Positions 179-14,877 of a stretch of 33,689 bases of DNA are shown here, piece after piece; positions within the stretch are counted from its first letter, which is position 1; the number at the start of each line of letters is the position of its first letter. The notes beneath the pieces were generated by a model. It ran no database searches and was not told the origin of the DNA. It was given only the letters and a program-made list of their open reading frames with translations. The translations under genes were made by a program, and so were the position numbers. Source of the DNA: a virus. The DNA lies in IMG/VR virus record IMGVR_UViG_3300042305_001667, positions 1 through 33,689 of that record, one strand, 5' to 3'.

Positions 179-589
179 TCAGCGTGAGCCACGAGCGCCA
201 CGAGGATCAACATATTCTCCTGTATCATAATCGTAATATCTTTCCCCAGCTTCTTTACGGCGTCTTTCATTTTCACGTCCCATAGCTTCGTTTTCCTTCG
301 TGCCTGGGGTCATCATGCGGTCGTGTTTTGCTGCATGTCTTTTTGCTCTACGTGCAGCGGATCTCCAATGCTTTTCTGAAGCAAGTGCTTTAGCGGCACC
401 TTCTTCATCACCTGCGTCGGAAAGCTTTTCGGCTAATGCTGCATAATCATCTGCGATGCTATCAAGTTGAGATCCTGGCTTGAAACCTCCAGGTGTGCCG
501 CCTCCAAGCATAACTTCAGCATCAAATGCTGAAACTTCTTCTACTTGTTCACGGATAAGTTGCTTTAGTTGTCCTAATGTAATCTTCAT
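179..589 (-). CDS. Small tagged protein A (capsid-targeting-like N-terminus, basic body)
   Basis: This 136-residue protein has no recognisable enzymatic domain. Residues 1-18 are MKITLGQLKQLIREQVEE, an amphipathic helix nearly identical to the N-termini encoded at 2711, 5008 and 5603 (all - strand). The rest has a Gly/Pro linker, an Ala-rich acidic helix (about 42-70), and an Arg/Lys/His-rich stretch (about 72-120) with a Tyr/Asp/Arg tail, as in a DNA-associated internal head protein. The start is supported by AAAGGAA upstream. A 58-bp block upstream is shared with the gene at 2451-2711, and the downstream terminator is shared too. In T4, short N-terminal sequences target internal proteins to the prohead and are cut by gp21 after [L/I]-x-E; I-R-E at 12-14 fits. 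Packaging is inference. Confidence 0.75.
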   Translation of the reverse strand: MKITLGQLKQLIREQVEEVSAFDAEVMLGGGTPGGFKPGSQLDSIADDYAALAEKLSDAGDEEGAAKALASEKHWRSAARRAKRHAAKHDRMMTPGTKENEAMGRENERRRKEAGERYYDYDTGEYVDPRGARGSR

Positions 590-627
590 AAAATAATATT
601 CCTTTCTCTTCTTTGAAGAGTTTTGTT

Positions 628-685
628 TTCTTTAAATATGATATAACCTTTAAATCTTCTTTTTTTTTCATCTCTATGCAGTTTA
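628..685 (-). promoter_or_regulatory. 58-bp conserved upstream block, copy A
   Basis: This block aligns without gaps to 2729-2786, and both lie upstream of - strand tag genes. On the - strand it contains AGAGATG, a run of nine A, GAA, and two ATTTAA boxes with an 18-bp period, the second inside ATATTTAAAGAA. Substitutions between the copies are not concentrated at third codon positions, so it looks like a promoter or leader, not coding DNA. The function is inferred. The rest of 590-859 holds no gene I can support. Confidence 0.5.
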
Positions 686-859
686 AAGTTATGATAGATT
701 GATGTAGGTTAGAAGACATAGAGAGAGACAAAAACGGTATTCTGATGTATATTTAACATACAGAGGTTCCTTATAAGCTTTTTTTCCAATGGTTGGATTT
801 TATGGCTTATATCTTTCCTCTGTATCATTAAAGTCCCATTGGGCAACATAGGTGAATAA

Positions 860-1519
860 ATGGCTAAAAGAAAGTTAAGCGTTAATGACGCTTATTTTGA
901 AAGCATTGATACACCTCAAAAAGCTTATTGGTTGGGCTTCATTGCTGCTGATGGTTGTGTCTCATCAACAAAAAACGCTATAGTAATAGCCTTACAACAA
1001 CAAGACAAATGTTTGCTTGAGCAGTTTAAACAAGATATTTGTTTTAGCGGCGAAGTAAAAGATTATAATAACAAATATAACGTTTCAAAAATCTATATTA
1101 CATCTAAAAAGATGAAAGAAGATTTAAGCAAATGGGGTATTGTTCCACGAAAAACTAATATACTAACTTGGCCAGACATAAATCAAAACTTCTATCCAGA
1201 TTTTATTAGAGGATATTTTGATGGTGATGGCTCATGGTCTGTCAGAGTTCGTGGAAACTGTAAAGATTGTATATTTCAGATTGTCTCCGGCGCAGAAACC
1301 TTTTTAAAACATATTGAAACTGTGTTAAGGTTAGAATGTGGATTTGAAGAACGAAACCTGTGCAAGATGACTAACACAAACTGTTACGAGTTGAAATATA
1401 GCGGAAATGGTAAAGCAATGAAGCTTTATGATTTTCTTTATAGACCCAACTCTTTTTACCTTGAACGCAAGTTCAATAAGGTCACTAACATAATAGAAAA
1501 TAAAAGGAAAGAAAAATGA
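860..1519 (+). CDS. LAGLIDADG-type homing endonuclease
   Basis: This 219-residue protein has two LAGLIDADG helices: YWLGFIAADG at 23-32 and FIRGYFDGDGS at 115-125. Each ends in the acidic residue that coordinates the catalytic metal, so one chain can form a complete active site. Such enzymes cut an allele lacking the element and spread their own gene by repair. There is no surrounding gene to splice, so it is free-standing. It sits between a - strand tag gene and the SSB gene, and its TGA overlaps the SSB ATG (ATGA, 1516-1519). It is richer in AT than the SSB gene, consistent with separate acquisition. A group I intron was considered, but no split gene is visible. Confidence 0.9.
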   Translation: MAKRKLSVNDAYFESIDTPQKAYWLGFIAADGCVSSTKNAIVIALQQQDKCLLEQFKQDICFSGEVKDYNNKYNVSKIYITSKKMKEDLSKWGIVPRKTNILTWPDINQNFYPDFIRGYFDGDGSWSVRVRGNCKDCIFQIVSGAETFLKHIETVLRLECGFEERNLCKMTNTNCYELKYSGNGKAMKLYDFLYRPNSFYLERKFNKVTNIIENKRKEK

Positions 1520-2337
1520 CATATTCATTAGACGCCATTAAGGCAAAAATCAATCAACTATCTGGTAATCGTGCCGCAGCGGGTGGAAAGACCGCAGAAA
1601 AGACGAAAGTAAACTGGTGGAAGCCGCAGCTTGGTCAGCATGACATTCGCTTCCTCCCCTATCAAGATCGTAATGGTCAGCCTTTCCATGAGGTAAGCTA
1701 TTATGATAGTCGCCTTCTATCAGAACGCCGGTTTGTAGCCGGTTGTCAGTTTGAAGGGACCACCGATCCTGTCTTTAATCTCCTAACCGAGCTAAAGAAG
1801 GATAAGTCCAAGGAAGCTTGGACGCTATGGCGTAATCTCCAGCCAAAGGAACGCTACTATGCCCCAATCATCGTTCGTGGTGAAGAGGATAAGGGCGTTC
1901 AACTCTGGGAGCTAAATGGAAAGCTTGTAAAGGATATTTACAGCGTTCTTGCTCACCCCGACTATAAGGATGAAAACCTTATGGATCCAGAGACTGGTTA
2001 TGATTTCACCGTAACCGTATCTCCAACTGATAAGACCTTTGCTGGTAATCCAGTTAAGGATATCAAGCTTCAACCACGCCGTAAGCCCTCACCACTCGCC
2101 AAGAGTTCAGAGGCAGCAGATAAGATTGTTGCTGGCATTCCAAACCTTGAGGCATACTTCAAGGCGCAGGTAAAGAGTGAGGACGAGCTTAATGCTATGC
2201 TTCAAAACTTCCTTGCTGGTAATGGTTCCTCCTCCGAGGAGACTGAAGAGGTTGAAGAGGTCAAGGATAAGACCGTTTCAGAGGCAAAGGTAAAGAAGGC
2301 AAAGAAATCGATCGATGATGCGTTCGGTGATTTGTGA
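1516..2337 (+). CDS. Single-stranded DNA-binding protein, T4 gp32-like
   Basis: This 273-residue protein binds ssDNA at the fork and coordinates recombinase and helicase loading (T4 gp32 is 301 residues). The N-terminal region (1-35) is basic and Ala/Gly-rich. The central part carries the aromatic pattern of the gp32 OB-fold: NWWKPQLGQHDIRFLPY at about 33-49, then YY, RYYAPIIVRGEE and GVQLWELNGKLV. The C-terminus has a Ser/Glu-rich linker (about 237-250) and ends in DDAFGDL, the acidic tail that typically recruits partners. The zinc-binding His/Cys set of T4 gp32 is not obvious. The start is fixed by AAAGGAAAG upstream and the ATGA overlap. C-ending codons suggest high expression. Confidence 0.85.
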   Translation: MTYSLDAIKAKINQLSGNRAAAGGKTAEKTKVNWWKPQLGQHDIRFLPYQDRNGQPFHEVSYYDSRLLSERRFVAGCQFEGTTDPVFNLLTELKKDKSKEAWTLWRNLQPKERYYAPIIVRGEEDKGVQLWELNGKLVKDIYSVLAHPDYKDENLMDPETGYDFTVTVSPTDKTFAGNPVKDIKLQPRRKPSPLAKSSEAADKIVAGIPNLEAYFKAQVKSEDELNAMLQNFLAGNGSSSEETEEVEEVKDKTVSEAKVKKAKKSIDDAFGDL

Positions 2338-2380
2338 CGGATTAAGCATCCCCCTGACAGTTTGAGATAAACAAAAGAAG

Positions 2381-2409
2381 AACGCCGCCAAGGAAACTTG
2401 AGCGGCGTT
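2381..2409. terminator. Perfect-stem terminator between SSB and tag gene B
   Basis: AACGCCGC (2381-2388) pairs perfectly with GCGGCGTT (2402-2409), followed by TTAACTTAT. It lies between convergent genes, so it probably serves both. The 37-bp unit 2381-2417 is repeated at 124-160. Confidence 0.7.
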
Positions 2410-2450
2410 TAACTTATATAACGGCGAGGTTGTTCAGAATACGTATTAAA

Positions 2451-2711
2451 TCAGAATAATCCTCTAGCGATATCTCTGATGTGCTGTTCTAAAGTGTCGC
2501 CATTTCGAAACACAATGACTAGTTCATCATCCTCGACAAAAACCCTTGTGACATTTTGTTTTGCACGACCCGCATCCGATGCATCAAACCAACCAGCATG
2601 ATCACCAAGCGCCAAAACAAACTTTTTTAAGTCGTTATGGCGACTGGCTTCCATTTCTTCTTCTACTTGTTCACGGATTAGTTGTTTAAGCTGCTTTACT
2701 GTAACTTTCAT
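2451..2711 (-). CDS. Small tagged protein B
   Basis: This 86-residue protein starts with MKVTVKQLKQLIREQVEE, the shared N-terminal helix, followed by a Glu-rich continuation. The body (about 25-86) is a small alpha/beta sequence ending in strands such as RVFVEDDELVIVF and a short helix. I recognise no family. An AGAGG site lies 8 nt upstream of the ATG. The 58-bp upstream block and the terminator are near copies of those of the gene at 179-589, while the bodies are unrelated. It lies between SSB and the recombinase gene but points the other way. A packaged or injected role is inferred only from the tag. Confidence 0.75.
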   Translation of the reverse strand: MKVTVKQLKQLIREQVEEEMEASRHNDLKKFVLALGDHAGWFDASDAGRAKQNVTRVFVEDDELVIVFRNGDTLEQHIRDIARGLF

Positions 2712-2728
2712 AAGATAACCTCTTTATC

Positions 2729-2786
2729 TTCTTTAAATATTGTAATCCCATTAAATGTTCTTTTTTTTTCATCTCTTTACAGTTTA
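2729..2786 (-). promoter_or_regulatory. 58-bp conserved upstream block, copy B
   Basis: This is the second copy of the block at 628-685, with the same run of nine A (- strand), both ATTTAA boxes and the same spacing. The ATATTTAA box lies 22 nt from the start of gene B. It is a candidate late promoter or leader. Confidence 0.5.
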
Positions 2787-2811
2787 CGTTTAGATACGGT
2801 TAGTATATGAT
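2783..2811 (+). promoter_or_regulatory. Candidate sigma70 promoter for the recombinase gene
   Basis: TTTACG (2783-2788) and TATGAT (2806-2811) are separated by 17 bp, 20 nt upstream of the recombinase ATG, which has GAAGGAA as ribosome site. The -35 end touches the divergent 58-bp block. Confidence 0.35.
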
Positions 2812-2831
2812 GATCTGAAAGAAGGAAACAC

Positions 2832-4058
2832 ATGGCAAAACCAACTACAAAAAAATCAGGAGATACGCAGCAAACAGTTCAAGATACAGTAATGGATGAC
2901 TTTTCATCCGATCTTATCAAAGCAATCAATAAAGAACACAATGATAAGATCGCTTTCAATCTTGGTGTAGATGATGCACCAACCCATGTTCATCGCTGGA
3001 TTTCTACAGGCTCACGACAACTAGATTATATTATCGGAAATCGTCGTGGTGGTGGAATGCCAGAAGGACGTATTGTAGAAATACAAGGTCCACCCGGTAT
3101 CGGTAAATCAACCCTAATGGCTCAAATAGCACGTTCTACCCAAAGAATGGGTGGCATTGCGGTCTATATCGATACCGAGAACGCAACAAATCCAGATACC
3201 CTTGCTAATATGGGTGTTGATGTGGCAAGAAGATTTGTTTTCGTTCAGTCCCCATGCACAGAGGAAATACTCTCCGTAATAGAGAGCACTATCCTTAAAG
3301 CCCGCACTATGACCAAAGACGTTCCTGTTACCGTCATTTGGGATAGCGTCTCTCAATCATCCCCAAAGGCTGAATTGGAAGGCGACTATGATCAGAACAC
3401 AATCGGTCTACAAGCCCGTGTTCTATCCAAGGGCATGAGAAAGATTGCTAACGTTATCGGTGGTCAGAAGGTTCTATTGGTTCTTGTAAGCCAACAGAGA
3501 CAGAAGATCGGCGTAATGTTCGGTGATCCAACTACAACATCTGGTGGTATGGCAATACCATATTCTTCATCGGTTCGTATCCGTCTTGATGGTGGATCGG
3601 CTATTAAGGATAAAGATGAAAACGTAATAGGTATTAACGTAACAGCTAAAACAATCAAGAACAAAGTAGCCAAGCCATTCCGTAAGGTTGGTTTCCAGAT
3701 TATGTTTGGAAAGGGTATCTTTGAGAATGATGAAATCTTTGATCTTCTTCGGGAGTATTGCAAGAATTCAAAGGCTGGAGTTACAGTAGGTAATAAGAGT
3801 GTTTCCGTAGCTGGAGATGGGGCTTGGAAGACCTTTACTGTGATGGATCTCAAAACTGGTGAGGTAGAAACTGAAGTTAAGTTCTATAAAAATGAATTTA
3901 GTCAGAAAGTTTTGAACAAACCAGACTATTTAGAATACGTTAATGCGCTGATGGACGCTGCACTTATTATCAGCAATAACGACAACACCGAAAGCCATGC
4001 AACTTATGAGGCAATAGCGGAAGGTGATGTAAAAACGGCTGACGAGTTAAGCGCCTGA
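2832..4058 (+). CDS. uvsX: UvsX/RecA-like recombinase
   Basis: This 408-residue ATPase would form filaments on ssDNA and catalyse strand exchange for recombination-dependent replication and repair. Visible motifs are Walker A GPPGIGKST (86-94), the catalytic glutamate region VYIDTENA (111-118), Walker B VTVIWDS (166-172) and a loop L2 region VSQQRQKIGVMFGDPTTTSGG (219-239). An N-terminal polar arm of about 40 residues and an Asp/Glu-rich C-terminus are typical. Length is close to T4 UvsX. It sits with SSB upstream and dUTPase, exonuclease and helicase downstream, matching a T4-like replication set. It is followed by a 13-bp inverted repeat. RecA or UvsX naming is a family-level call. Confidence 0.9.
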   Translation: MAKPTTKKSGDTQQTVQDTVMDDFSSDLIKAINKEHNDKIAFNLGVDDAPTHVHRWISTGSRQLDYIIGNRRGGGMPEGRIVEIQGPPGIGKSTLMAQIARSTQRMGGIAVYIDTENATNPDTLANMGVDVARRFVFVQSPCTEEILSVIESTILKARTMTKDVPVTVIWDSVSQSSPKAELEGDYDQNTIGLQARVLSKGMRKIANVIGGQKVLLVLVSQQRQKIGVMFGDPTTTSGGMAIPYSSSVRIRLDGGSAIKDKDENVIGINVTAKTIKNKVAKPFRKVGFQIMFGKGIFENDEIFDLLREYCKNSKAGVTVGNKSVSVAGDGAWKTFTVMDLKTGEVETEVKFYKNEFSQKVLNKPDYLEYVNALMDAALIISNNDNTESHATYEAIAEGDVKTADELSA

Positions 4059-4100
4059 CATTAACAACCCCAATAACACACAACACATAACACCCAAAGT

Positions 4101-4150
4101 AAAGGCGATAATCTAAACTAACTGAAAGGTTAACAAGGATTATCGCCTTT
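4101..4150 (+). terminator. 13-bp inverted repeat between recombinase and dUTPase genes
   Basis: AAAGGCGATAATC (4101-4113) and GATTATCGCCTTT (4138-4150) pair perfectly around a 24-nt loop, which holds a smaller TAAC/GTTA pairing. The following ATCATTTTAA is only moderately T-rich and the dUTPase ribosome site (ACAGGAGAAAC) follows closely. It could be a leaky terminator or an mRNA-processing structure. Confidence 0.5.
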
Positions 4151-4173
4151 ATCATTTTAAACACAGGAGAAAC

Positions 4174-4746
4174 ATGAAATCACATAATCCAAATGATGCA
4201 ATTAGAATAGCAATAGAAGAACCAGTAGCACAAAATGCATATAAAACCGTAGACCGTAATTGGTTTGACCCTCAAATACCAAAGGCACCAAAAACTATCA
4301 ATATCAAATTTAAACTCATGAATAGTAATGCCAAGCTACCTCATGCAGTCCGAGATGGAGATATTGGCTTTGATGTTTATTGTGCGGAGAATATAAATGT
4401 TCCAGCTCACGGTTTAGCTAAAATATCAACCGGTATTCAATTAGCAGATATGCCAATAATGGACAATGATCGTAATCGTATCTTTATGAAGATAGAGGGA
4501 CGTAGTGGATTAGCCAGTAAGGGTATATTCCCTGTTGGTGGTATTATAGATCCAAACTATAGGGGTGAGATAGGCGTTACGCTTATTAACCATAGTGCTG
4601 CTGATGCGGTATTTAATGTTGGTGATAGAATAGCTCAGTTAGTAGTTTACAAGGTAGCTACTGCTGGTGAGGTAGTAATGGCTGAGACAAACAAAGTTAC
4701 TGAGACAAATCGTGGTTCTGCTGGATTTGGTTCATCGGGAAAGTGA
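4174..4746 (+). CDS. dut: dUTPase (deoxyuridine triphosphatase), trimeric type
   Basis: It hydrolyses dUTP to dUMP and pyrophosphate, keeping uracil out of DNA and feeding dTMP synthesis by the ThyX at 15502-16173. All five motifs are visible in the 190 residues: GDIGFDVY (62-69), GRSGLASKG (109-117), GGIIDPNYRGEIGV (122-135, with catalytic Asp126 and Tyr129), GDRIAQLVV (150-158) and RGSAGFGSSG (180-189). About 45 residues precede the usual domain start and match nothing I recognise. A good AGGAGAAAC site precedes the ATG. It ends just before a strong terminator. Confidence 0.93.
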   Translation: MKSHNPNDAIRIAIEEPVAQNAYKTVDRNWFDPQIPKAPKTINIKFKLMNSNAKLPHAVRDGDIGFDVYCAENINVPAHGLAKISTGIQLADMPIMDNDRNRIFMKIEGRSGLASKGIFPVGGIIDPNYRGEIGVTLINHSAADAVFNVGDRIAQLVVYKVATAGEVVMAETNKVTETNRGSAGFGSSGK

Positions 4747-4767
4747 AATCGGTTAGATAGAAAAGAG

Positions 4768-4802
4768 AAACGCCGCTCGGGATTGATTTCGGGGCGGCGT
4801 TT
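4768..4802. terminator. Hairpin terminator between dUTPase and tag gene C
   Basis: AAACGCCGC (4768-4776) pairs perfectly with GCGGCGTTT (4794-4802). The stem matches the terminators at 123-153 and 2381-2409 but the loop differs. It lies between convergent genes. Confidence 0.7.
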
Positions 4803-4825
4803 TCAATTATACCATTCAAATGGTT

Positions 4826-5008
4826 TCAGAGCTTTAAATTCTTCTTTGCCCATTCTTTTGCAAGTGGGTCGGCAGTATTTAATGTTTTTACAGCGGCTTG
4901 AACTTCTTCAGATGCTAAAGGCATATATACACTTTGATCATCTTCTTTCATTGCCATTTCAACTTGTTCACGAATAATTTGCTTTAGTTGTCTATATGTA
5001 ATCTTCAT
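4826..5008 (-). CDS. Small tagged protein C (60 residues)
   Basis: The N-terminus MKITYRQLKQIIREQVEMAM matches the shared tag. The remaining 40 residues are mostly polar and helical, and no family is recognised. More than a quarter of the protein is tag, so after cleavage at I-R-E only about 45 residues would remain. It is second in a - strand pair, 13 nt after the gene at 5022-5603, with GGGATAAA upstream of the ATG. It probably shares that gene's promoter. Confidence 0.65.
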   Translation of the reverse strand: MKITYRQLKQIIREQVEMAMKEDDQSVYMPLASEEVQAAVKTLNTADPLAKEWAKKNLKL

Positions 5009-5021
5009 ATTATTTATCCCT

Positions 5022-5603
5022 TCAGCGACGATTTTTCAATTGGCGTCTTAACTCTTCTTTTACCATTTGTTGAATTTCTTCTTCAAGTCCCATAAAGCCT
5101 AAACCGAATAATCCTGGCTTCCAACCTTTTTTAGTTACCATTTTTACAACTGCGTCGGCTCTTTTGTTTCCGAAATTGGGAATTTTGACTTTGTTTAACG
5201 CCTGATAGCACGCCGCCATTACCTCATCGTCCCTCGAACGGATCAGCTCAATAATGTAGCGCCCGACCTTCGGATCTTTATGTGCGTCTTTTTTATTTAA
5301 ATACTCTATAATATCATTTGCAAGTTCTGTTCCTTCTTTTTGAATTTTTTGTTCACGAGCATTTTCTCTACTCCTGTCCGCCGACCTCTCGGCGGACGAG
5401 GCGGCTCGGGTAAGCCGGTCTTGTTCCAAATTTCTCGTTCCTCTTCTCTCAAGCTCGGCTCTAATATTTTCTTTGTCTTCTCTCGGAATGTTATATCCAA
5501 GACTATTTTCAAGGTCTGAGGCAGTATACGTCGTTATATCTTTACCATTATACAATACTTGTTCACGGATAAGCTGTTTAAGTTGTCTTACTGTAATTTT
5601 CAT
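5022..5603 (-). CDS. Tagged protein D (193 residues)
   Basis: The protein begins MKITVRQLKQLIREQV, the shared tag, then a different body. About 30-90 is Arg/Glu-rich and probably coiled (Ser-Ala-Glu-Arg repeats around 68-82). About 95-165 is a helical domain with alternating charged and hydrophobic residues. The tail (about 175-193) ends in a second Glu/Lys-rich helix. I recognise no enzyme. GAGGAG lies upstream of the ATG and an ATATTTAA box (5629-5636 on the - strand) 26 nt upstream. It is divergent from the exonuclease gene at 5697. It may be an internal head or core protein, by tag only. Confidence 0.7.
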   Translation of the reverse strand: MKITVRQLKQLIREQVLYNGKDITTYTASDLENSLGYNIPREDKENIRAELERRGTRNLEQDRLTRAASSAERSADRSRENAREQKIQKEGTELANDIIEYLNKKDAHKDPKVGRYIIELIRSRDDEVMAACYQALNKVKIPNFGNKRADAVVKMVTKKGWKPGLFGLGFMGLEEEIQQMVKEELRRQLKNRR

Positions 5604-5696
5604 ATATTAATCTCCTCAAAAGATAAAGTTAAATATATTTGAAGAATTGAAATCTAACCGGTATATCAATTAAATTCGTTGGTATATGTTAAGTCT

Positions 5697-6707
5697 ATGT
5701 CCCAACCAACCCAAGAAAGACCGATACTAATCATTGATGCATTCAATAATTTTATTCGGCATTTCCTGGTCAATCAAGAAATTAATCTCCGTAGTCAGCC
5801 GGTAGGAGGAGTGGTTGGGTTCTTGAAATCGGTTGACTACCTTGTTGGAACCTTCTGCCCATCCCGTGTATACGTTGTCTGGGAAAACGGTGGTCCGTCT
5901 CAAAGGCGCAGACACATTTCCCCCGAATACAAGGCGAATAGAGCCAAGATGAAGGAAGTGAAGAAAATCCAACAAGGAAAGGAGAGCATTCGGGATGTTT
6001 TAGCATTAGATGATCAGACAAGGGTTCAACAGATCACAATGCTAACAGCTCTACTTAAGAGCACTCCCGTATGCCAGATTTACGTGCAAGATACAGAATG
6101 TGATGATATCATCGCTTATCTTGCTCAAGATAAACTTCATAACTCAACCGCTAAAAGAATTATCGTTTCTAACGATAAAGACTTCTACCAATTACTTCAT
6201 AATCCACTTATAGAAATATATGATCCTGCCAGCCGTAAGATTATAGATGGAAATGAAGTTATTAATAAGTTTGGTATTTCTGCCAGGAATTTTTGTTTGG
6301 CAAAAACGATAGCTGGTGATGATAGCGATAACGTAGCTGGGGTGCCAGGAGCAGGGTTCAAGACGGTAGCTAAACGATTTCCTAAAATGGCTTCTATAGA
6401 TGAAGACCTGGATATAGCTACGGTCATAACAGAAGCCAAGGCAGCGAATATAGGAAAGAAGAAACCTATTGCTGTTTATAACGATATTGTAGAATGTGAA
6501 CAGCTAATAAGACGTAATTGGGACTTAATGTATTTGAACAGTAGCAATTTAAGTGCGAGTCAGATTAGCAAGATTAACTACATTGTGGATAACCATGAAC
6601 CAAGAATGGATAAGTTGGGGTTAATCAGAACAATCATGGAATGTGGTATAAATGCCACGTTTGATTATGATCGTTTTTGCTCCCAAATGCGCAATTTTGT
6701 GCGATAA
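5697..6707 (+). CDS. 5'-3' exonuclease, T4 RNase H/FEN type
   Basis: This nuclease family removes RNA primers and 5' flaps during lagging-strand synthesis. Acidic metal-binding residues appear in order: Asp14 (LIIDAFNNF), Asp132/Glu134/Asp136-137 (DTECDDIIAYL), Asp160/Asp162 (SNDKDFYQLL) and Asp208-211 (AGDDSDNVAGVPGAG). The last leads into the helix-3-turn-helix DNA-binding segment (about 212-225). I chose ATG 5697; the frame extends to a TTG at 5679, but neither has a clear ribosome site and the conserved fold begins soon after the ATG. The protein is 336 residues from ATG. It is divergent from tagged gene D and precedes the helicase. Confidence 0.88.
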   Translation: MSQPTQERPILIIDAFNNFIRHFLVNQEINLRSQPVGGVVGFLKSVDYLVGTFCPSRVYVVWENGGPSQRRRHISPEYKANRAKMKEVKKIQQGKESIRDVLALDDQTRVQQITMLTALLKSTPVCQIYVQDTECDDIIAYLAQDKLHNSTAKRIIVSNDKDFYQLLHNPLIEIYDPASRKIIDGNEVINKFGISARNFCLAKTIAGDDSDNVAGVPGAGFKTVAKRFPKMASIDEDLDIATVITEAKAANIGKKKPIAVYNDIVECEQLIRRNWDLMYLNSSNLSASQISKINYIVDNHEPRMDKLGLIRTIMECGINATFDYDRFCSQMRNFVR

Positions 6708-6762
6708 TTTAGGGGTTTAAATTAATTTTAGAAATCGAGTAAGGTTACAAGAAAGGAAACCT

Positions 6763-8205
6763 ATGAGCGTAGTATTTATGAAAACGATGAGCGGTGAGCA
6801 GACCAAACCAGAACCTGTGAAGGCTGAAACTGGAAAACATTTCTCTTTTGATAAGAGCTTCCAAGAAAAGATTGTCCAAGCTTTCTTGATTGATAGAAAT
6901 TGGGCAGGACAGTTTGCAGAAGTTCTTGATGTTAACTTCTTCCAGTTTGCATATCTTAAAAAGATTGCCGACACTTATATGTCTTATAACAAGAAATATA
7001 AGGAATTCCCATCAATGGCTTTACTTGCTCAAATCGTAGCATCCGAGCTAAAGAACCCATCTGATAGCATTCTTCGTTCCCAAATCCATGATTTCCTACT
7101 TCGTGTAGAAGAAAACAAGGATCTTGGTGATCTTGGATATGTCAAGGAGAAATCCCTTGATTGGTGTAAGCGTGCTGGACTTCAGAAGGCTCTTGAAGCC
7201 TCCATTGAGTTCATTGAGACAGAGAAGTATGAGAAGGTTGTAGAAACCATTAAATCGGCTATTAACGCTGGTAATGAGCATTCCCCAGGCTTGGAGCTTA
7301 AGGATGATGTTGATGCCCGTTATAGCGAAACCTTCCGCAGAACTGTCGCTACTGGCATTAAACAACTTGATGAAAAGAAGATCCTTAATGGTGGTCTTGG
7401 TGCCGGTGAACTTGGTGTAATCATTGCTCCTACAGGGGTAGGTAAATCCCACCTACTTACCCACTTTGGAGCACAGGCTCTCCTACAAGGCAAGAATGTA
7501 TTGCATTATACGTTTGAACTAAATGAGAGAGCTGTTGGTATTCGTTATGACAGTCATTTGCTTGATATTGATAGCATTGATTGTTATGAACACAAAGAGA
7601 AGATCAAGAAGTATTACGAAGAGAATGCAGAAACCCTTGGTCGTCTAAAGATTAAATATTATCCAACCGGCACAGCTACAATCAATACCTTACGTTCACA
7701 TATTGATAAGCTTGCTAATGAAGGTTTTAGACCAGACGTATTGGTTATTGATTATGCTGGTATTATGCGTTCAACAGAGAAGTATGAGCTTCTACGTCTT
7801 GAACTAAAGAAGATTTATGAAGAACTTCGTGGCTTTGCTAATGAAGTAGATATTCCGGTATGGACCGCTTCACAGTCAAATAAGGAAGGCGCCAACAAGG
7901 ATTACGTTGACCTTACAAACATGGCAGAAGCTTATGGTCAGGCCCACGTTGCAGACTTTGTTCTCGGTCTTGCCAGAAAGAGCATGAGCAAGAGCACAGG
8001 TTATGGCAATATCTTCATTGCAAAGAACAGAGCCGGTGTAGATGGTGTTCAATTCCAGATACACTTGGATACTGCTCGCTCTAAACTTCGTGTTCTATCC
8101 GAAGAAGAGTTTAACAAGATGAAATCAGATCAGGAAGAACTTGAAGACGGTAATCTTAAAAACTTCTTCCGTGAAAAGATCCGAGACTATCAAAAGAACC
8201 ATTGA
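6763..8205 (+). CDS. Replicative DNA helicase, DnaB/T4 gp41 type
   Basis: This 480-residue RecA-fold ATPase would unwind DNA as a hexamer. An N-terminal helical region (about 30-175) precedes the motor. The motor shows Walker A APTGVGKSH (222-230), a catalytic glutamate in YTFELNE (249-255), Walker B VLVIDYAG (326-333) and a sensor region WTASQSNKEG (about 371-380). AAGAAAGGAAA precedes the ATG. It is followed after 8 nt by the NrdB gene. No separate primase gene is seen in the window. Confidence 0.9.
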   Translation: MSVVFMKTMSGEQTKPEPVKAETGKHFSFDKSFQEKIVQAFLIDRNWAGQFAEVLDVNFFQFAYLKKIADTYMSYNKKYKEFPSMALLAQIVASELKNPSDSILRSQIHDFLLRVEENKDLGDLGYVKEKSLDWCKRAGLQKALEASIEFIETEKYEKVVETIKSAINAGNEHSPGLELKDDVDARYSETFRRTVATGIKQLDEKKILNGGLGAGELGVIIAPTGVGKSHLLTHFGAQALLQGKNVLHYTFELNERAVGIRYDSHLLDIDSIDCYEHKEKIKKYYEENAETLGRLKIKYYPTGTATINTLRSHIDKLANEGFRPDVLVIDYAGIMRSTEKYELLRLELKKIYEELRGFANEVDIPVWTASQSNKEGANKDYVDLTNMAEAYGQAHVADFVLGLARKSMSKSTGYGNIFIAKNRAGVDGVQFQIHLDTARSKLRVLSEEEFNKMKSDQEELEDGNLKNFFREKIRDYQKNH

Positions 8206-8213
8206 GGTGTTAT

Positions 8214-9194
8214 ATGTCCCTAATAGAACGTCGCATCAATTATAAGCCATTTTCATATCCACAAGCTTATGACTATTGGCTCAAGCAACAACAAGCACAT
8301 TGGCTTTCCTCCGAAGTAACTCTTAATCAGGATCTTCTTGATTGGAATATGAACCTTACTCCGTCAGAGAAGTCTATTATTGGTGGCATTCTAAAGGGCT
8401 TTACACAGACTGAAATATTCGTTAATGATTATTGGTCTAATAAGGTAGGTCGTTGGTTCCAGCATCCAGAAGTTGTTATGGCTGCTACAACAATGGCTTC
8501 CTTTGAAACCATCCATACACAAGCCTATTCTCTACTTGATGAAACTCTCGGATTTGCTAACTATGAGGCATTTCTTGCAGAGCCAACCATTAAAGCCAAG
8601 ATTGATCGTCTTGTAGAAACTGGTAATATTGATACAACTGATATGACAATAGAGAAAAAGATGACAATGGCAAAGTCTCTTGCTGTATTCTCTGCATTTA
8701 CAGAAGGCGTTTCTCTTTTCTCTTCATTTGCTGTCCTTTTGCATTTCTCCCGTTATAATAAAATGAAAGGCATGAGCCAGATCGTCACTTGGAGTATTAA
8801 GGATGAAACGCTACATTCGGAGTTTGGTTGTTATTTGTTTAGAACGTTTATTGAAGAAAATCCGGAAATCTGGACCGACGAATTCAAGAAAGAAATCTAC
8901 CAAGCAGCAAGAGATACTGTGGCTTTAGAAGATAACTTTATTGATAAGGTATTTGAGCACGGAGACATTGAAGGTCTTACCAAGGAAGATTTAAAGGATT
9001 TTATCAGACACCGCACAAATATGCAACTTGGTAAACTCGGTTTAAAACAGAATTGGAAGAATGTAGACAAGGAAGCATTGAAGCGTATGGAATGGTTTGA
9101 TGCTATTGGTGCTGGAGTTAGACTTGATGATTTCTTTAGCGTTAAGCCAACTGATTATTCCAAGGGCGTTGTAAATTTTGATGATATGTTTTGA
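8214..9194 (+). CDS. nrdB: Class I ribonucleotide reductase, small (beta) subunit
   Basis: It houses the metal cofactor that starts radical-based reduction of ribonucleotides by NrdA. Metal ligands fit Glu67 (GFTQTE), Glu98 and His101 (FETIH), Glu164 (TEGVSL), Glu198 and His201 (KDETLHSEFG). The radical tyrosine position is kept as Tyr105, four after His101. The first ligand is Glu where E. coli NrdB has Asp84. The tail VNFDDMF is the type that docks on NrdA. An in-frame TTG at 8202 exists, but GAGGTG at 8205-8210 sits ideally before ATG 8214, giving 326 residues. It is just upstream of nrdA. Confidence 0.93.
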   Translation: MSLIERRINYKPFSYPQAYDYWLKQQQAHWLSSEVTLNQDLLDWNMNLTPSEKSIIGGILKGFTQTEIFVNDYWSNKVGRWFQHPEVVMAATTMASFETIHTQAYSLLDETLGFANYEAFLAEPTIKAKIDRLVETGNIDTTDMTIEKKMTMAKSLAVFSAFTEGVSLFSSFAVLLHFSRYNKMKGMSQIVTWSIKDETLHSEFGCYLFRTFIEENPEIWTDEFKKEIYQAARDTVALEDNFIDKVFEHGDIEGLTKEDLKDFIRHRTNMQLGKLGLKQNWKNVDKEALKRMEWFDAIGAGVRLDDFFSVKPTDYSKGVVNFDDMF

Positions 9195-9211
9195 TTAAAC
9201 GAGAATAATAT

Positions 9212-10921
9212 ATGAAGACACTAGAACAATTAAAAGCAGAAGGGGAAGCACCAGAATGGTTAACATCTGATGCATTCCAGACATTACGTGGTGGTTATCT
9301 TTGGAATGATGAAACTCCAAAAGCTATGTATCATCGTGTAGCAGCAGCAGTAGCAAGTTCCCTAAAGAAGCCAGAGCTTGAAACCAAGTTCTTTGATATT
9401 ATGTGGAAAAACTGGCTATGCCCTTCTACTCCAGTTCTATGCAATGCTGGAACAACTCGAGGATTGCCAATCTCTTGTTTCTCTTCATATATGGCTGATG
9501 ATACGTATGAGATCCTTGAAACCTTACAGGAAGTAGCAATGCTATCCAAATATGGTGGTGGAACAGCTATTCACGTTAATGATGTTCGTGCTAAAGGGGC
9601 TCCAATCTCAAAGGGCGGACATTCTGATGGTGTAGTTCCATTCCTTAAAATGGCAGATAGCGTTATTCTTGGTATATCACAGGGTTCTACCCGTCGAGGT
9701 GCTTGTGCTGCTTACATTGATATTGAACATGGTGACTTTGATGAGTTCTTACAGTCCCGCCGACCTACGGGTGACGTTAATAGACAATGCCTTAATCTAC
9801 ATCATGGTGTATGTGTTTCTAATGCGTTTATAGACAAGGTAAAGGCTGGAGATCCAGAGGCACGTAGACGCTGGAAAGAGCTTGTTAAGAGCCGTGTAGA
9901 GACAGGAGAGCCCTATGTTTTCTTTACGGACAATGCTAATGATCAAGCGCCGCCTGTATTAAAAGAAACCGGCATCAAACTAAAAGGTTCAAATCTCTGT
10001 TCTGAAATCTTCCTTCCTACAGATAAGGATCATACATTTGTTTGCTGCCTTTCTTCCCTTAATCTCGCAAGATGGGATGAATGGAAAGATACGGATACAG
10101 TTCAACTCTCTGTATGGTTCCTTGATGGTATAATGGAAGAGTTTATCCAGAAAGCCTCAAAGCTTCGTGGATTTGAAAGAGCATTAAGATTTGCTGTTAA
10201 GTCCCGTGCTCTTGGACTTGGTGTTCTCGGTCTACACTCATACTTCCAAAAGAATATGATTGCATTTGATAGCCTACAAGCTTATCTCCAGAATAAAATC
10301 ATATTCAAGAAGATTAGAGAAGAAGCAGAGTTGGCAACAACAGTTCTTGCGACTGAATATGGAGAGCCAGAGTGGTGTAAGGGTCATGCCAGAAGAAATG
10401 CTACTCTTATGGCTATAGCACCAACTGTATCTAACTCCCTTATTGCTTCTAACGTATCTCAAGGTATTGAGCCATGGATTGCTAATGCATTTGCTCAAAA
10501 GAGCGCAAAGGGAACATTCGTAAGAAGAAATCCAGAGCTTGAGAAGCTTCTTAAGAGCATTGGACAAGATACCGATGAAGTTTGGGGTTCAATCCTTAAG
10601 AATGATGGTTCAGTTCAGCATTTAGAATGTTTAACAGCGGAACAAAAGGAAGTATTCCTTACAGCAAGAGAGTTAAATCAGTTTGCTATTATTAAGTTGG
10701 CGGCTGAAAGACAGAAGTTCATTGATCAAGGACAAAGCATCAATATCTTCTTCCCAGCTAATAGTGATCCAAAGTATATCAATCAGGTTCATTTAGAAGC
10801 TGCTAATAGTGGATTAAAGAGCCTATATTATCTTCGTTCCACATCTGTTCTTAAAGCTGAACAGAATAGCAATGCTGTTTATAAGAGAGAACTAACAGAA
10901 TGCACTTGGTGCGAAGGATGA
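9212..10921 (+). CDS. nrdA: Class I ribonucleotide reductase, large (alpha) subunit
   Basis: This catalytic subunit (569 residues) reduces ribonucleotides to deoxyribonucleotides with NrdB. Active-site features are Cys89 (PISCFSS), the Asn-Cys-Glu set in NLCSEI (261-265) and a Cys in VCCLSSLNLA (about 278-279). A YY pair for radical transfer lies in SLYYLRS near the end. The C-terminal CTWC (564-567) is the swinging redox pair, normally reduced by thioredoxin or glutaredoxin. No such partner gene is seen in the window. The N-terminal ATP-cone is absent, so overall activity may not be shut off by dATP; this is inference. It is followed after 4 nt by the amidase gene. Confidence 0.95.
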   Translation: MKTLEQLKAEGEAPEWLTSDAFQTLRGGYLWNDETPKAMYHRVAAAVASSLKKPELETKFFDIMWKNWLCPSTPVLCNAGTTRGLPISCFSSYMADDTYEILETLQEVAMLSKYGGGTAIHVNDVRAKGAPISKGGHSDGVVPFLKMADSVILGISQGSTRRGACAAYIDIEHGDFDEFLQSRRPTGDVNRQCLNLHHGVCVSNAFIDKVKAGDPEARRRWKELVKSRVETGEPYVFFTDNANDQAPPVLKETGIKLKGSNLCSEIFLPTDKDHTFVCCLSSLNLARWDEWKDTDTVQLSVWFLDGIMEEFIQKASKLRGFERALRFAVKSRALGLGVLGLHSYFQKNMIAFDSLQAYLQNKIIFKKIREEAELATTVLATEYGEPEWCKGHARRNATLMAIAPTVSNSLIASNVSQGIEPWIANAFAQKSAKGTFVRRNPELEKLLKSIGQDTDEVWGSILKNDGSVQHLECLTAEQKEVFLTARELNQFAIIKLAAERQKFIDQGQSINIFFPANSDPKYINQVHLEAANSGLKSLYYLRSTSVLKAEQNSNAVYKRELTECTWCEG

Positions 10922-10925
10922 CCAT

Positions 10926-11612
10926 ATGACAATAAGACTAATAGACTTAAGAGCACAACAAACAAATCCATTTCCCAGAAAAAAGAGTTCTGACGGAAAG
11001 ATTATAAACACATCAAAGGTTGTTAAAGGTAAAACCGTATGCCGTGATCCAAAATCTGTAACCGGTATTGGTATTCATCAAACAGCCTGTGTGTTCGGAC
11101 CATTAAATGATAGAGAGAAGGCTTACAGACGTGCCAGCGGTATTCCAGCCCACGTTACAGCCTTCAGAGATGGTGTATATGTAGCTGCTGCACCGTTAGA
11201 TTGGTTCTTATATCATGGAAATGAGCTTAATGCATTTAGTCTTGGATTAGAGTGCGAAGGACATTATCCAGGGCTATTAGATGACCCAAAAACGCCTATT
11301 AGAGAGGATATCAAGACAACCTGGGGCGGCACACCAACTCCATTAGATGATAAGGCTATAGAGACGTTTAGAGCCGCCCTTAAGTGGCTAGTAGAGAATG
11401 GTAGAGCCGCTGGTATGCCAATAGAATATATCTGGGCACACAGACAATCAAATGGTCAAAAGCCTTCAGATCCTGGTATGGGTATTTGGCAAAAGGTTGT
11501 ATTGGAATATGGTGTTCCAGTTTTAGGATTAAAGACCCAAACAGAGAAATGCTGGCGTGACGGTAAGCCAATCCCAACAAACTGGGATCCAAACGGCGTA
11601 GGCAAATATTGA
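10926..11612 (+). CDS. N-acetylmuramoyl-L-alanine amidase (Amidase_2/PGRP fold)
   Basis: It probably cuts the amide bond between MurNAc and the stem peptide of peptidoglycan. Zinc ligands fit His51 (GIHQTA), His172 (WAHRQS) and Asp182 (KPSDPG). No signal peptide or clear cell-wall-binding repeat is visible in the 228 residues; the last 30 residues (TEKCWRDGKPIPTNWDPNGVG) could form a small accessory module. A holin is not seen beside it. The gene follows nrdA by 4 nt, so it may be co-transcribed with nucleotide genes, unusual for a lysis gene. T7 lysozyme is a related amidase that also regulates RNA polymerase, an alternative role. Its TGA abuts the stop of the convergent exonuclease gene. 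Confidence 0.85.
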   Translation: MTIRLIDLRAQQTNPFPRKKSSDGKIINTSKVVKGKTVCRDPKSVTGIGIHQTACVFGPLNDREKAYRRASGIPAHVTAFRDGVYVAAAPLDWFLYHGNELNAFSLGLECEGHYPGLLDDPKTPIREDIKTTWGGTPTPLDDKAIETFRAALKWLVENGRAAGMPIEYIWAHRQSNGQKPSDPGMGIWQKVVLEYGVPVLGLKTQTEKCWRDGKPIPTNWDPNGVGKY

Positions 11613-12422
11613 TCAACGGAACTCGTAGGTATCTTGTCTTTCCTCAAAGAAGTTAATGAGGGCAGATAGAATACCTGCGAGTTGTTCTGTATCTGCGATA
11701 GCAGAATGCCAATGTTTTGTAGAAACTTGGAAAGCCGTGCCCAAATCTCCAAGACGATTAATAAAGAACTTTTTTGGTCTTAATACACGGAGGAGAGGTT
11801 CAGCGGCTGGATCTCCCTCTTTTTCCATTAGAGCAAGAAGAGGTTGTAGATAGTTCTTTGCAAGAGCTTTTGTATCTACAATTGGCATTGTTGGCATTTT
11901 AGGAAGTTTGTGGCGTTCTAATGCTTTACCAATCTGATACATATCAAATCTTGCATTATGAGCGACTAATATTGGATTACGATCAGCAAAACTGTTAATA
12001 AAGTCTACGAAGCCTTCCATCATTTCAGCTTCTTCCTGATAAGGAACAGTTTCTGTATGATAAGCAGTCATACCAAGTAGGTCTTCTACAGTCTTTTCAT
12101 CTGGATTTGTCCATTTACCACGAGCTTTAAGGTCTTTTTCTCTTTCTATTCTGGAAAGAGTAGCAGCGGTTAGTTTAGCCTTCATATTGAACTCACCAAG
12201 GCGTTCACCTGTATTGGTATCATAAGCTACACCGGCTATTTCTGTTATTTGAGCAAATGGTTTCTTTGGATCCAGAGTTGTAGTCTCTGTATCTATGAAG
12301 ATTAATGTTTTGTTTTTAATCTTATCTACAACTTGGTCAAGGGTTAGTAGGGTCTTTTCTATTTGACCTTCTTCCAAGGCTTCACGGAGGATAAGTTTTA
12401 TGTATGTTTTTAGTAAGTTCAT
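11613..12422 (-). CDS. DEDDh 3'-5' exonuclease with tag-like N-terminal helix
   Basis: This DnaQ-like exonuclease has 269 residues. Catalytic residues are Asp44/Glu46 (FIDTET), Asp160 in AHNARFD (154-160), and His239/Asp244 in HSAIADTEQ. About 36 residues precede the fold, starting MNLLKTYIKLILREALEEGQ. This resembles the tag helix and has two T4-type cleavage sequences, L-R-E before Ala and L-E-E before Gly. The other DEDDh exonuclease in the window (26721-27302) lacks this extension. No clear Shine-Dalgarno is seen. It is divergent from the metallopeptidase gene by 24 bp, which also carries a tag-like start. It could be a proofreading or nucleotide-recycling enzyme, or a packaged nuclease. 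Confidence 0.85.
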   Translation of the reverse strand: MNLLKTYIKLILREALEEGQIEKTLLTLDQVVDKIKNKTLIFIDTETTTLDPKKPFAQITEIAGVAYDTNTGERLGEFNMKAKLTAATLSRIEREKDLKARGKWTNPDEKTVEDLLGMTAYHTETVPYQEEAEMMEGFVDFINSFADRNPILVAHNARFDMYQIGKALERHKLPKMPTMPIVDTKALAKNYLQPLLALMEKEGDPAAEPLLRVLRPKKFFINRLGDLGTAFQVSTKHWHSAIADTEQLAGILSALINFFEERQDTYEFR

Positions 12423-12446
12423 AGAAGTAAGTAGTAATTAAAGATT

Positions 12447-13394
12447 ATGAACGAACAACTTAAAAAACTTCTTGAATACCTTTTGGAAGAGGAATTGGAA
12501 GAACAAGTGGCGATTAGCACGGGTGGAGGAGCTGTGGCTTCAAGTGGTGCTATAGCTGGTGGTAGTGCATCTTCTGCAATGGATCCTGCTAATTTTAGTC
12601 CCCCACCTAAAAACAAATTAAATGAGATTAATCTTGTATATAATGGAGCTGGGTTAAGTTTTTCTGATATATCAAATAATAATATGGATGCTTCGCAAGA
12701 TCAGGGAGATTTAACCGGTGAAAATGATGATACTAAAAATCCATCAAAAAACAGAGTAAAGAAAAGTCTAAAAAGAAAATTTAATTATCGAAAAAGCGAT
12801 AGAGGATATAACCCTGTAGAAGATACTATGTGGAACTATGGGGATAAGCCAATCTATCGTGATGGTAAAGCAGGGACACTTCCAGCAAATAAAGTAAAAT
12901 ATATTGCTTTAGAAGAAGTAGTAAGTTTGGACAAGACTCCAAAGAAAGTAAAAATATATCAAGATAAAGGTCATCCAGTTAGTCAGCAATCACTAAACGT
13001 TCTTATTGATTTCCTTAAATTTTGTAACAGCATTCTAAAGCTTGAAAACATGCCAGATATATATCTTCACATGATAAAGAAGCCAGAAATGACAACTGGC
13101 ATGTATAATCGTGGCGATCACATAATCCATGTTTTGTTTGGCAAACGGCTTTTAGTGGATGTTATGAGAACAATTGCTCATGAACTTACCCATGCCCGTC
13201 AAGAGGAGACAGGATTACTTGATAAGCATTTAGCAAATGTTGATCCTATGAATGAGATGGGTGACATAGACACGATATATGAGAATGAAGCTTATACTCT
13301 TGCAGGCAATATTGTAAAGATATTTTGCCGTAAATATAAGCGTATTCCTAAAGATGAATTGTATGAACTTAATGAAAACAAGCGGTGGTTATGA
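12447..13394 (+). CDS. HExxH zinc metallopeptidase with tag-like N-terminal helix
   Basis: This 315-residue protein has three parts. Residues 1-20 (MNEQLKKLLEYLLEEELEEQ) form an amphipathic helix like the tag, with L-E-E sites. Residues about 22-110 are low complexity: Gly/Ser/Ala, then Asn/Asp, then Lys/Arg. Residues about 150-315 are the peptidase: HELTH (245-249) gives two zinc His and the catalytic Glu246, and ENEA (279-282) offers Glu281 as a third ligand. The specific peptidase family is not identified. The target is unknown; if packaged, it could act in the head or be injected. Its TGA overlaps the PAP2 gene start (ATGA 13391-13394), so the two are translationally coupled. Confidence 0.8.
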   Translation: MNEQLKKLLEYLLEEELEEQVAISTGGGAVASSGAIAGGSASSAMDPANFSPPPKNKLNEINLVYNGAGLSFSDISNNNMDASQDQGDLTGENDDTKNPSKNRVKKSLKRKFNYRKSDRGYNPVEDTMWNYGDKPIYRDGKAGTLPANKVKYIALEEVVSLDKTPKKVKIYQDKGHPVSQQSLNVLIDFLKFCNSILKLENMPDIYLHMIKKPEMTTGMYNRGDHIIHVLFGKRLLVDVMRTIAHELTHARQEETGLLDKHLANVDPMNEMGDIDTIYENEAYTLAGNIVKIFCRKYKRIPKDELYELNENKRWL

Positions 13395-14041
13395 ATTTTT
13401 TAGATAAAGTCACATATGGCAATCTTTCCTTAAGATATAAAGAGATATCTTTACGTAGGGATAAAGTTAGTGAGAAACTAATGAAGTTTGGGTTATATGA
13501 TCGTTTATTTGAAATACCACCACCAGCAAATTCTTCTACAGAAACAGAAAGAGAACTTTTAAAGCTTGTAAATATATTAAAAAATCTATCAGATGTAACC
13601 CTTGAATTTTGCAAACAAGCAGAAAAAGATCATGTTAAATTGTTCATTGAGTATTTGAATCGTCATGGTATTAATGATATAAACAAGGACGATTTGAATA
13701 TTGTTTTGAATGAGCTAGAACCTTTGTTAATCCGTTTAAAAGAACATTATAACCGTCCAAGACCTTATCAATTGGCCAATTATTATGGTTTAGATATATA
13801 CGTTCCTATTGATGCATATATGGCACTTACTCCTGCATATCCAAGTGGTCATTCTTTTGAAGGATATATACTAGGAGAAATATTATCCGCCAAGTATCCA
13901 GAACATGCTGTTGGATTACTTAAACTAGGTAAAAATGTAGGTTTATCAAGAATAGCTACTGGAGTTCATTATCCATCTGATCATGAATTTGGTCGATACT
14001 TGGGCGCCATAATCATAGAAAATGATTTAGTCCAACTATAA
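13391..14041 (+). CDS. PAP2-family phosphatase, soluble
   Basis: The 216 residues carry the complete PAP2/vanadium-haloperoxidase signature: K-x6-RP at 117-125 (KEHYNRPRP), PSGH at 151-154, and SR-x5-H-x3-D at 186-197. His193 would be the phosphate-accepting histidine. There is no signal peptide or membrane helix, so it should be soluble, unlike lipid phosphatases of this family. The frame extends to a GTG at 13385, but ATG 13391 makes the usual 4-bp overlap with the metallopeptidase gene. The substrate cannot be read from the sequence. The coupling suggests a joint role with the metallopeptidase. Confidence 0.85.
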   Translation: MNFLDKVTYGNLSLRYKEISLRRDKVSEKLMKFGLYDRLFEIPPPANSSTETERELLKLVNILKNLSDVTLEFCKQAEKDHVKLFIEYLNRHGINDINKDDLNIVLNELEPLLIRLKEHYNRPRPYQLANYYGLDIYVPIDAYMALTPAYPSGHSFEGYILGEILSAKYPEHAVGLLKLGKNVGLSRIATGVHYPSDHEFGRYLGAIIIENDLVQL

Positions 14042-14097
14042 TATCTTGTGACAAAGTTCACGTATATCACCTCTATTTATTTATATGGGTGTTATAT

Positions 14098-14877
14098 ATG
14101 AGAAAAGTGTTATTGGGTTTTATTTTATTGATAACGTTATTGTTTAGTTGCCACAGCAATGTGGATATCCGGCGGGAAGAGAGAATATCTCCGCTGGAAA
14201 ATGCACTACGAGCAACTGTAGCCTTCGTAGAAACAAGAACAGAGACAGCCGCTGATCAAACCGCACAGGTATATTGCAGCGGCTTTTTTATTTCTGATCG
14301 GGTAATAGCCAGCGCCTTGCATTGCTTTCAACATATGCGGATTGTAAACTTTCATGGTCATATATTGCAAATACCAACTGTATATGATCCAACGGGAGAC
14401 GTGGTTCAATTTGTTAGATATGGCGATATTGATATGTTAACAAGACGTTTTATAAACGACATTGTTAATGAAGCTGAAGTTGTTTACATAGATAGCGAAA
14501 ATGACCTCGCCATTTTAAGATTGACAGAAAATACCGAAGATGCAGAGCACATTATAACTTTAGCTGTAGAACCACCAGATGTAGCTCAAAGAGTTATATT
14601 AGTTGGTCATCCACATGAGTTAGTATGGTCTGTAGTAGACGGTATAGTTTCAAGAAATATTATAGTAAATGGACAATTGATTGTTATTCAAGCTTCTATA
14701 CCTCTTACTGGAGGATATTCTGGTGGTCCCTTGATGTTGCCAGACGGTCGTGCAATAGGATTAGCAAGTTCTTATATAGGAGATATGCATCATTTGTCTC
14801 TGTTTGTCGCTTCACGACTAATTGCTCAAGGACTTTTCATACATGAAATGTCACGAATGAACATAAATAATCATTGA
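14098..14877 (+). CDS. Lipoprotein trypsin-like serine protease
   Basis: The N-terminus MRKVLLGFILLITLLFSC is a lipoprotein signal: basic start, hydrophobic core and Cys18 in a lipobox. The mature protein should be lipid-anchored outside the cytoplasmic membrane. The S1 catalytic triad fits His75 (ASALHCF), Asp136 (SENDLAIL) and Ser208 (GGYSGGPL). Cys60 and Cys76 could form the usual disulphide near the His. Start ATG 14098 has GGGTG 6 nt upstream; the frame extends to a GTG at 14089. A surface protease made during infection could alter the envelope or block superinfection, but this is speculation. Confidence 0.85.
   Translation: MRKVLLGFILLITLLFSCHSNVDIRREERISPLENALRATVAFVETRTETAADQTAQVYCSGFFISDRVIASALHCFQHMRIVNFHGHILQIPTVYDPTGDVVQFVRYGDIDMLTRRFINDIVNEAEVVYIDSENDLAILRLTENTEDAEHIITLAVEPPDVAQRVILVGHPHELVWSVVDGIVSRNIIVNGQLIVIQASIPLTGGYSGGPLMLPDGRAIGLASSYIGDMHHLSLFVASRLIAQGLFIHEMSRMNINNH

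Follow-up and report, generated by a model that had tools for sequence, protein, structure and literature searches.

A conserved N-terminal tag on exchangeable proteins of uncultured T4-like phages resembles the capsid-targeting sequence of T4 internal proteins

Introduction

The internal proteins IPI, IPII and IPIII of phage T4 and the T4 protein Alt bear a capsid-targeting sequence (CTS), a short N-terminal propeptide starting with MK in front of otherwise unrelated bodies; in IPII and IPIII it reads MKTYQEFIAE/A, with the cut at the slash. Genetic analysis of IPIII revealed that residues 4 and 7 mainly drive targeting and residues 8 and 10 processing (PMC9026906), both termini of Alt are processed (PMC5694885), and IPI, once injected, inhibits a restriction enzyme of the host (PMC3012670). 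Also, the first 30 residues of DarB of phage P1 send proteins, a reporter included, into the head (PMC9024508), and in the phages phiKZ and SPN3US head propeptides are cut after Glu by a gp21-like protease, two paralogues having an identical N-terminal stretch (PMC5694885). In this study, we analyzed the complete IMG/VR record IMGVR_UViG_3300042305_001667 (33,689 bases, hereafter called the window), a fragment of a T4-like phage in which four small genes start with a common N-terminal tag followed by unrelated bodies. We assign a probability of about 0.8 to the reading that this tag is a capsid-targeting propeptide working like the CTS of T4; it probably marks a large and fast-changing protein cargo carried inside the viral shell.

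The tag is like the CTS of IPI, IPII, IPIII and Alt in being a short N-terminal peptide that starts with MK, aligns in an ungapped register and heads unrelated bodies, and like the genes of T4 internal proteins the tagged genes lie on the minus strand amid genes of DNA metabolism. One protein family with a motif helix at both ends recalls Alt. The tag is longer than the T4 CTS by four residues, about one turn of a helix; unlike the CTS, it is mostly followed by Glu or Gln after the predicted cut, and it often has a second motif at residue 22. While T4 has a handful of such proteins, the tag heads several hundred body groups, with as many as 13 genes in one array. With the Dar proteins of P1 the tag would share the function of an N-terminal head signal, but these have no common N-terminal consensus (PMC9024508), whereas the tag is strongly conserved. 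The propeptides of phiKZ and SPN3US are mostly longer than 100 residues and are not common to many unrelated bodies. Core genes located between gp21 and gp23 in T4-like relatives begin with the same helix; unlike the tagged genes, they are conserved single genes of the head module and not variable cassettes. The tag system would be a known kind of device, in a new variant and on a much larger scale.

Results and discussion

Four genes of the window share an N-terminal tag

Four minus-strand genes with 5′ ends at 589, 2711, 5008 and 5603 begin with MK[IV]TxxQLKQ[LI]IREQV (MKITLGQLKQLIREQVEEVS, MKVTVKQLKQLIREQVEEEM, MKITYRQLKQIIREQVEMAM and MKITVRQLKQLIREQVLYNG, respectively). Their bodies are unrelated and gave no match in Pfam or PHROG. 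A first-pass annotation made from the letters alone had described these genes and their shared start; its coordinates were all correct, and the common tag was confirmed. Gene 1 (179-589, 136 residues; tag residues 1-14, MKITLGQLKQLIRE, at 548-589, with a predicted cut after Glu14) combines the tag with a body of unknown function and lies in a slot upstream of the SSB gene, which in relatives is filled by other tagged genes. Gene 2 (2451-2711, 86 residues; tag MKVTVKQLKQLIRE, 2670-2711) occupies a slot between SSB and UvsX. Gene 3 (4826-5008, 60 residues; tag MKITYRQLKQIIRE, 4967-5008) is located directly downstream of gene 4 (5022-5603, 193 residues; tag MKITVRQLKQLIRE, 5562-5603), which is found in a slot between dUTPase and the 5′-3′ exonuclease FEN.

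In gene 4, the conserved tag and a C-terminal helix region (GLEEEIQQMVKEELRRQLKNRR, residues 171-193, 5025-5093) flank a variable middle. This helix region is common to four proteins with different middles, and in the family the helix (EIQQMVKEELRRQLKNRR) is kept while the middle changes. It contains IQQMVKE, which conforms to phi-x-x-phi-phi-x-E (phi, hydrophobic residue). AlphaFold2 predicts the tag as a separate helix (residues 5-19 in gene 4), and in gene 4 both tag and C-terminal helix are set off by low-confidence linkers; no fold match was obtained for this model. A 102-residue protein of G017 (L151, 7900-8205) has no N-terminal tag and ends in a C-terminal helix (RIDRMVREEITRQLRSKR) like that of the gene 4 family.

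The tag is specific for protein starts and widespread in IMG/VR

Residues 2-16 of tags matching a strict pattern were used to build a profile, with which every position of 1,847 distinct proteins from the window and its relatives was scored. A score of at least 10 was reached at the protein start in 49 of the 1,847 proteins vs 28 of 470,431 other positions, which excludes chance as the source of the tag; several of the 28 internal matches are tags behind mis-called starts. Among 58 tagged proteins, the bodies of which are otherwise dissimilar, L8 is (almost) invariant, I12 and E14 each reach at least 90% conservation, and hydrophobic residues at positions 8, 11 and 12 together with Glu14 fit 55 of the 58 tags. 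As for a T4-type CTS, a short N-terminal peptide thus recurs on unrelated bodies, conserved over 15 residues and in many members up to residue 22. An unbiased comparison within G015 gave 26 protein pairs with alike N-termini and unlike bodies, and 0 such pairs when residues 40-70 were used.

A DNA pattern scan of IMG/VR detected the exact window form in 16 stretches and the related form MKITKxQLRxIIxEE in at least 120, and several hundred tagged bodies were gathered. These fall into 58 body groups in a first set and, among the matches listed, at least 373 in a second, formed by a loose 4-mer criterion, so that both counts are upper estimates for the number of independent families. The window form was found once in a search of 84,980 bacterial and archaeal genomes, on a 5.6-kb contig resembling the same phage lineage. 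This contig (L382, JAIOYD010000118.1), binned as a metagenome-assembled genome of Rickettsiaceae, bears two window-type tagged genes and looks like either a mis-binned phage contig of the window lineage or a weak hint to the host. With the MKITKRQLRRIIKEE form, the only tblastn match, to an uncultured 484-kb phage, was weak (E 6). The tag peptides were not found printed in the literature searched.

Conservation ends at a gp21-type motif, in register with the T4 CTS

Across 416 tagged bodies, information is high up to residue 15, falls, shows a second peak at residue 22 and is near zero from residue 23 onwards. Residues past 16 played no part in selecting this set, so that the second peak was not selected for. 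Residue 22 is Glu in 40% of the proteins, and phi-phi-x-E ends there in 26% vs a per-position background of 0.5%; the window lineage has a less pronounced second site (VEE18). As conservation stops at residue 22, the bodies start directly after a gp21-type motif, which is expected if a cut removes the entire tag.

In an ungapped alignment, L8, L11, I12 and E14 of the tag correspond to Y4, F7, I8 and E10 of T4 IPIII. We regard this agreement as a match in register, too short to establish common descent, so that the likeness to the CTS would be one of register and context only. Within the first 28 residues, phi-x-x-phi-phi-x-E is about 2-3-fold enriched in T4, Immutovirus, G015 and the window, and no N-terminal enrichment was found in T7 or HTVC008M. 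Microcystis phage Mel-JY01, considered as a further tag carrier, was rejected since it showed no shared tag and a weak N-terminal enrichment only. The shorter pattern [L/I]-x-E, on which the first-pass annotation had drawn for a gp21-type cut, had to be given up as evidence: it occurs in residues 1-20 of 477 of 2,213 untagged proteins vs residues 41-60 of 363 of 2,037, and a pattern common anywhere discriminates nothing without the register.

Tagged genes occur in the head module

G015 contains the exact window-type tag core (MKITKKQLKQLIREQV) together with terminase, portal and a gp21-type protease, the latter matching PF03420 (gp21, Peptidase_S77) with E 6e-36 and 119 bits vs a curated cut-off of 27. 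Two tagged genes are located between portal and protease, the place of gp67 and gp68 in T4, and four more form a row upstream of the terminase. A gp21-type protease and a gp23-type shell protein were both found in other records with the tag or its register. In 43 modules with protease and major capsid protein (MCP), obtained from a search with the MCP of a close relative, 45 of 209 genes between protease and MCP have the tag or the register vs 38 of 580 genes outside, and genes between the two often begin with the same helix (e.g. MGITKQQLKTIVKECLVEIL and MKLTSTVLKRIIAEEVAKIK).

Immutovirus, which is among the nearest cultured groups and has the gene order SSB-RecA-exonuclease-helicase-NrdF-NrdA in common with the window, has further recurrent N-termini with like endings (FDLKKFLVEN, RMQKLAGIITES and SQLRQIIKEA). 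In Flavobacterium phage immuto (L172-L175) several recurrent N-terminal tags were observed (MENFDLKKFLVENKLT, MKKQILSEQFKRMQ-LAGIITES and MKKSQLRQIIKEA), all ending in phi-phi-x-E, which makes this phage a culturable model for the tag idea. One published study on Baltic Flavobacterium phages contains neither proteomics nor immuto.

Tagged genes are exchanged in slots and form tandem arrays

In relatives with UvsX mostly 75-95% identical (60% in one case), the replication operon has three slots for tagged genes, which always lie on the strand opposite to the operon: one slot precedes SSB, one separates SSB from UvsX, and the third separates dUTPase from FEN. These slots hold 36 tagged proteins in 19 body clusters (BLASTP) with constant tags, and one cluster can occupy different slots. 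Also, tandem arrays of 13 (L362), 8 (L281) and 5 (L300) tagged genes were found. Pfam and PHROG scans of 58 + 80 tagged proteins yielded one GNAT match (E 7e-6) and few other, weak ones, and a NUDIX hydrolase was recognised behind a weaker tag; hardly any function could otherwise be assigned to the tagged bodies. A PHROG match to 'Ulx-like anti-restriction' (E 0.01) from the scan of 58 proteins was dropped as a chance hit.

Of 65 tagged genes, 32 have the sequence TATTTA in the 60 bases upstream; the count is 5 for 395 replication genes and 4 for 43 recognised structural genes, these four including a portal, an MCP and a tail sheath gene. In the window, the candidate promoter element ATATTTAA is located on the minus strand at -29 to -50 of tagged genes 1 (632-639), 2 (2733-2740) and 4 (5629-5636), and gene 3 directly follows a tagged gene. 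This arrangement suggests that the tagged genes may be under a common, perhaps late, promoter. Unlike TATTTA, the T4 late-promoter sequence TATAAATA was not enriched upstream of tagged genes.

Two enzymes with diverged tag-like N-termini

The first-pass annotation had also noted that two enzyme genes of the window start with helices resembling the tag, and this observation holds in a stricter form. The register (hydrophobic 8, 11 and 12 and Glu14, i.e. phi-x-x-phi-phi-x-E) is found among the untagged window proteins only in these two, a DEDDh exonuclease (11613-12422, minus strand; RNase_T, phrog_192) and an HExxH protein with the motif HELTH (12447-13394, plus strand). The exonuclease starts with MNLLKTYIKLILREA (tag-like residues 1-14, MNLLKTYIKLILRE/A, at 12381-12422) and the putative metallopeptidase with MNEQLKKLLEYLLEEE (tag-like residues 1-14, MNEQLKKLLEYLLE/E, at 12447-12488). 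The latter protein has no Pfam match and a weak fold match to M1/M61 aminopeptidases (best PDB E 4e-3, model pLDDT 48). Among untagged proteins of all loci the register occurs in 24 of 2,213, with about 6 expected.

Proposed mechanism and significance

We propose that the amphipathic helix of the tag, with hydrophobic residues at 3, 8, 11, 12 and 16, packs onto the prohead core, the proteins of which in this clade begin with the same kind of helix. A body fused behind the tag would then be enclosed as the shell forms. The gp21-type protease would cut after phi-phi-x-E14, in many members also or instead near residue 22, and the freed cargo might later be ejected along with the DNA; some bodies may serve in counter-defence. 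Because loading would need only the tag, bodies could be exchanged freely. The modular capsid-loading system put forward by the first-pass annotation is thereby well supported with regard to a CTS-like tag, by the ungapped register, by portal, gp21-type protease and gp23 as neighbours, by the gp21-like end and by the swapping of cassettes; its claim that the two enzymes belong to the cargo stood less firmly, as the 14-residue register is what speaks for it. More tentatively, and in our judgement at slightly less than even odds, large uncultured T4-like phages may possess an open-ended injected arsenal of dozens of proteins per genome with the same cleavable head tag, in some also at the C-terminus, arranged in tandem arrays and exchange slots.

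If the logic of T4 holds, a tag of 15-22 residues flags several hundred otherwise unclassifiable phage protein groups as virion cargo. It would provide a sequence handle for injected counter-defence proteins, by which hundreds of unknown anti-host or anti-defence effectors could be picked, would account for a class of fast-swapping phage genes, and could supply new signals for loading phage heads with proteins to be delivered.

Alternative explanations

Several observations weigh against a capsid-targeting function. Most tags have Glu or Gln at P1′ vs Ala in the T4 CTS, tblastn with the window-form peptide gave no match in cultured phages, where the exact tag was not found, and the 33.7-kb window has no head genes. 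The protease was not found on the records nearest to the window, so that the link to it runs via more distant records, and no tag was found in 44.6 kb of G017 (UvsX 84% identical), where gp23 is present. For the head modules the nominal p of 1e-8 is inflated, as many of the module genes are orthologues. No virion proteome of the window lineage was found, and no published report on cleavage, virion presence or injection of tagged proteins. Finally, the L281 array sits among tail genes, between tail tube and baseplate hub. Together with the position of the window slots inside a replication operon and the general-purpose binding of amphipathic helices, this array would also fit a tag that stays on the protein and docks it to a target other than the prohead, such as the tail, the replisome, the inner membrane or a phage compartment. 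We consider such a docking helix unlikely, since docking alone needs no end of conservation at a second phi-phi-x-E (residue 22), and since the register is that of the T4 CTS and tagged genes lie with same-helix core genes between gp21 and gp23. Those core genes, and the cutting of gp22, gp67 and gp68 of T4 into fragments (PMC5694885), could on the other hand mean that the small tagged proteins are scaffold or core fragments, i.e. structural prohead parts degraded in maturation. Hundreds of unrelated bodies, a few of them with enzyme domains (NUDIX, GNAT), and hypervariable slots are unlike a scaffold, and we rate this explanation as improbable.

The conserved segment might furthermore be kept as DNA, as a recombination or translation-start sequence heading exchangeable cassettes, with the peptide being incidental. 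Cassettes are indeed swapped behind it, upstream elements recur, and in the close lineage 67% of the codons at shared residues are identical vs 38% expected, which points to a contribution of recent exchange. In comparisons of distant records, however, 48% of these codons agree (37% expected), with L8, I12 and E14 still in place, and the most conserved columns are those of the amphipathic register. We therefore favour selection on the peptide and consider a role as DNA very improbable. A larger share of doubt concerns the exonuclease and the metallopeptidase, the helices of which could resemble the tag by chance, without the two enzymes being cargo. The tag profile gives both of them negative scores, and only one relative has the exonuclease at the corresponding site, where the others lack it. 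Both, however, match the register at exactly residue 14, as do 0.26% of internal windows, and seven relatives retain the metallopeptidase helix; in one, a single inserted residue displaces the Glu behind it. We regard a chance resemblance as possible, though the less likely of the two outcomes; that the enzymes are cargo is plausible but less certain, given the 14-residue register on diverged N-termini.

Further features of the window and its relatives

The plus strand of the window encodes SSB, UvsX, dUTPase, FEN, a DnaB-type helicase and ribonucleotide reductase, part of the replication-gene names being assigned from sequence and gene order alone. The products of 27397-28914 and 29594-30778 are mosaic proteins that contain internal helices resembling the tag of the metallopeptidase (YIKDLVRETIQELLG, EELKTLLEYLLNEQ and QLKEVIRYLIVEAEK) and small recurrent modules (phrog_27331 and phrog_23735), the former protein having an N-terminal NLKKLLEYTGP segment. 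Homologues are present in close relatives, and both products are possibly polyprotein-like head components. A PAP2 phosphatase (13385-14041) and a trypsin-like protein with a lipoprotein-like signal (14089-14877) are encoded near an amidase gene; together with a patatin-like protein (31271-32167) they form an unusual, possibly host-directed set of enzymes, all without a recognisable tag. The genes at 860-1519 and 28911-29591 likely encode homing endonucleases, one LAGLIDADG-like and one GIY-YIG-like, and variable genes adjoin them. In six close relatives (L030, L032, L034, L058, L083 and L084) the UvsX gene is interrupted or extended by an insertion of 250-270 residues, probably an intein or else an intron that encodes a homing endonuclease.

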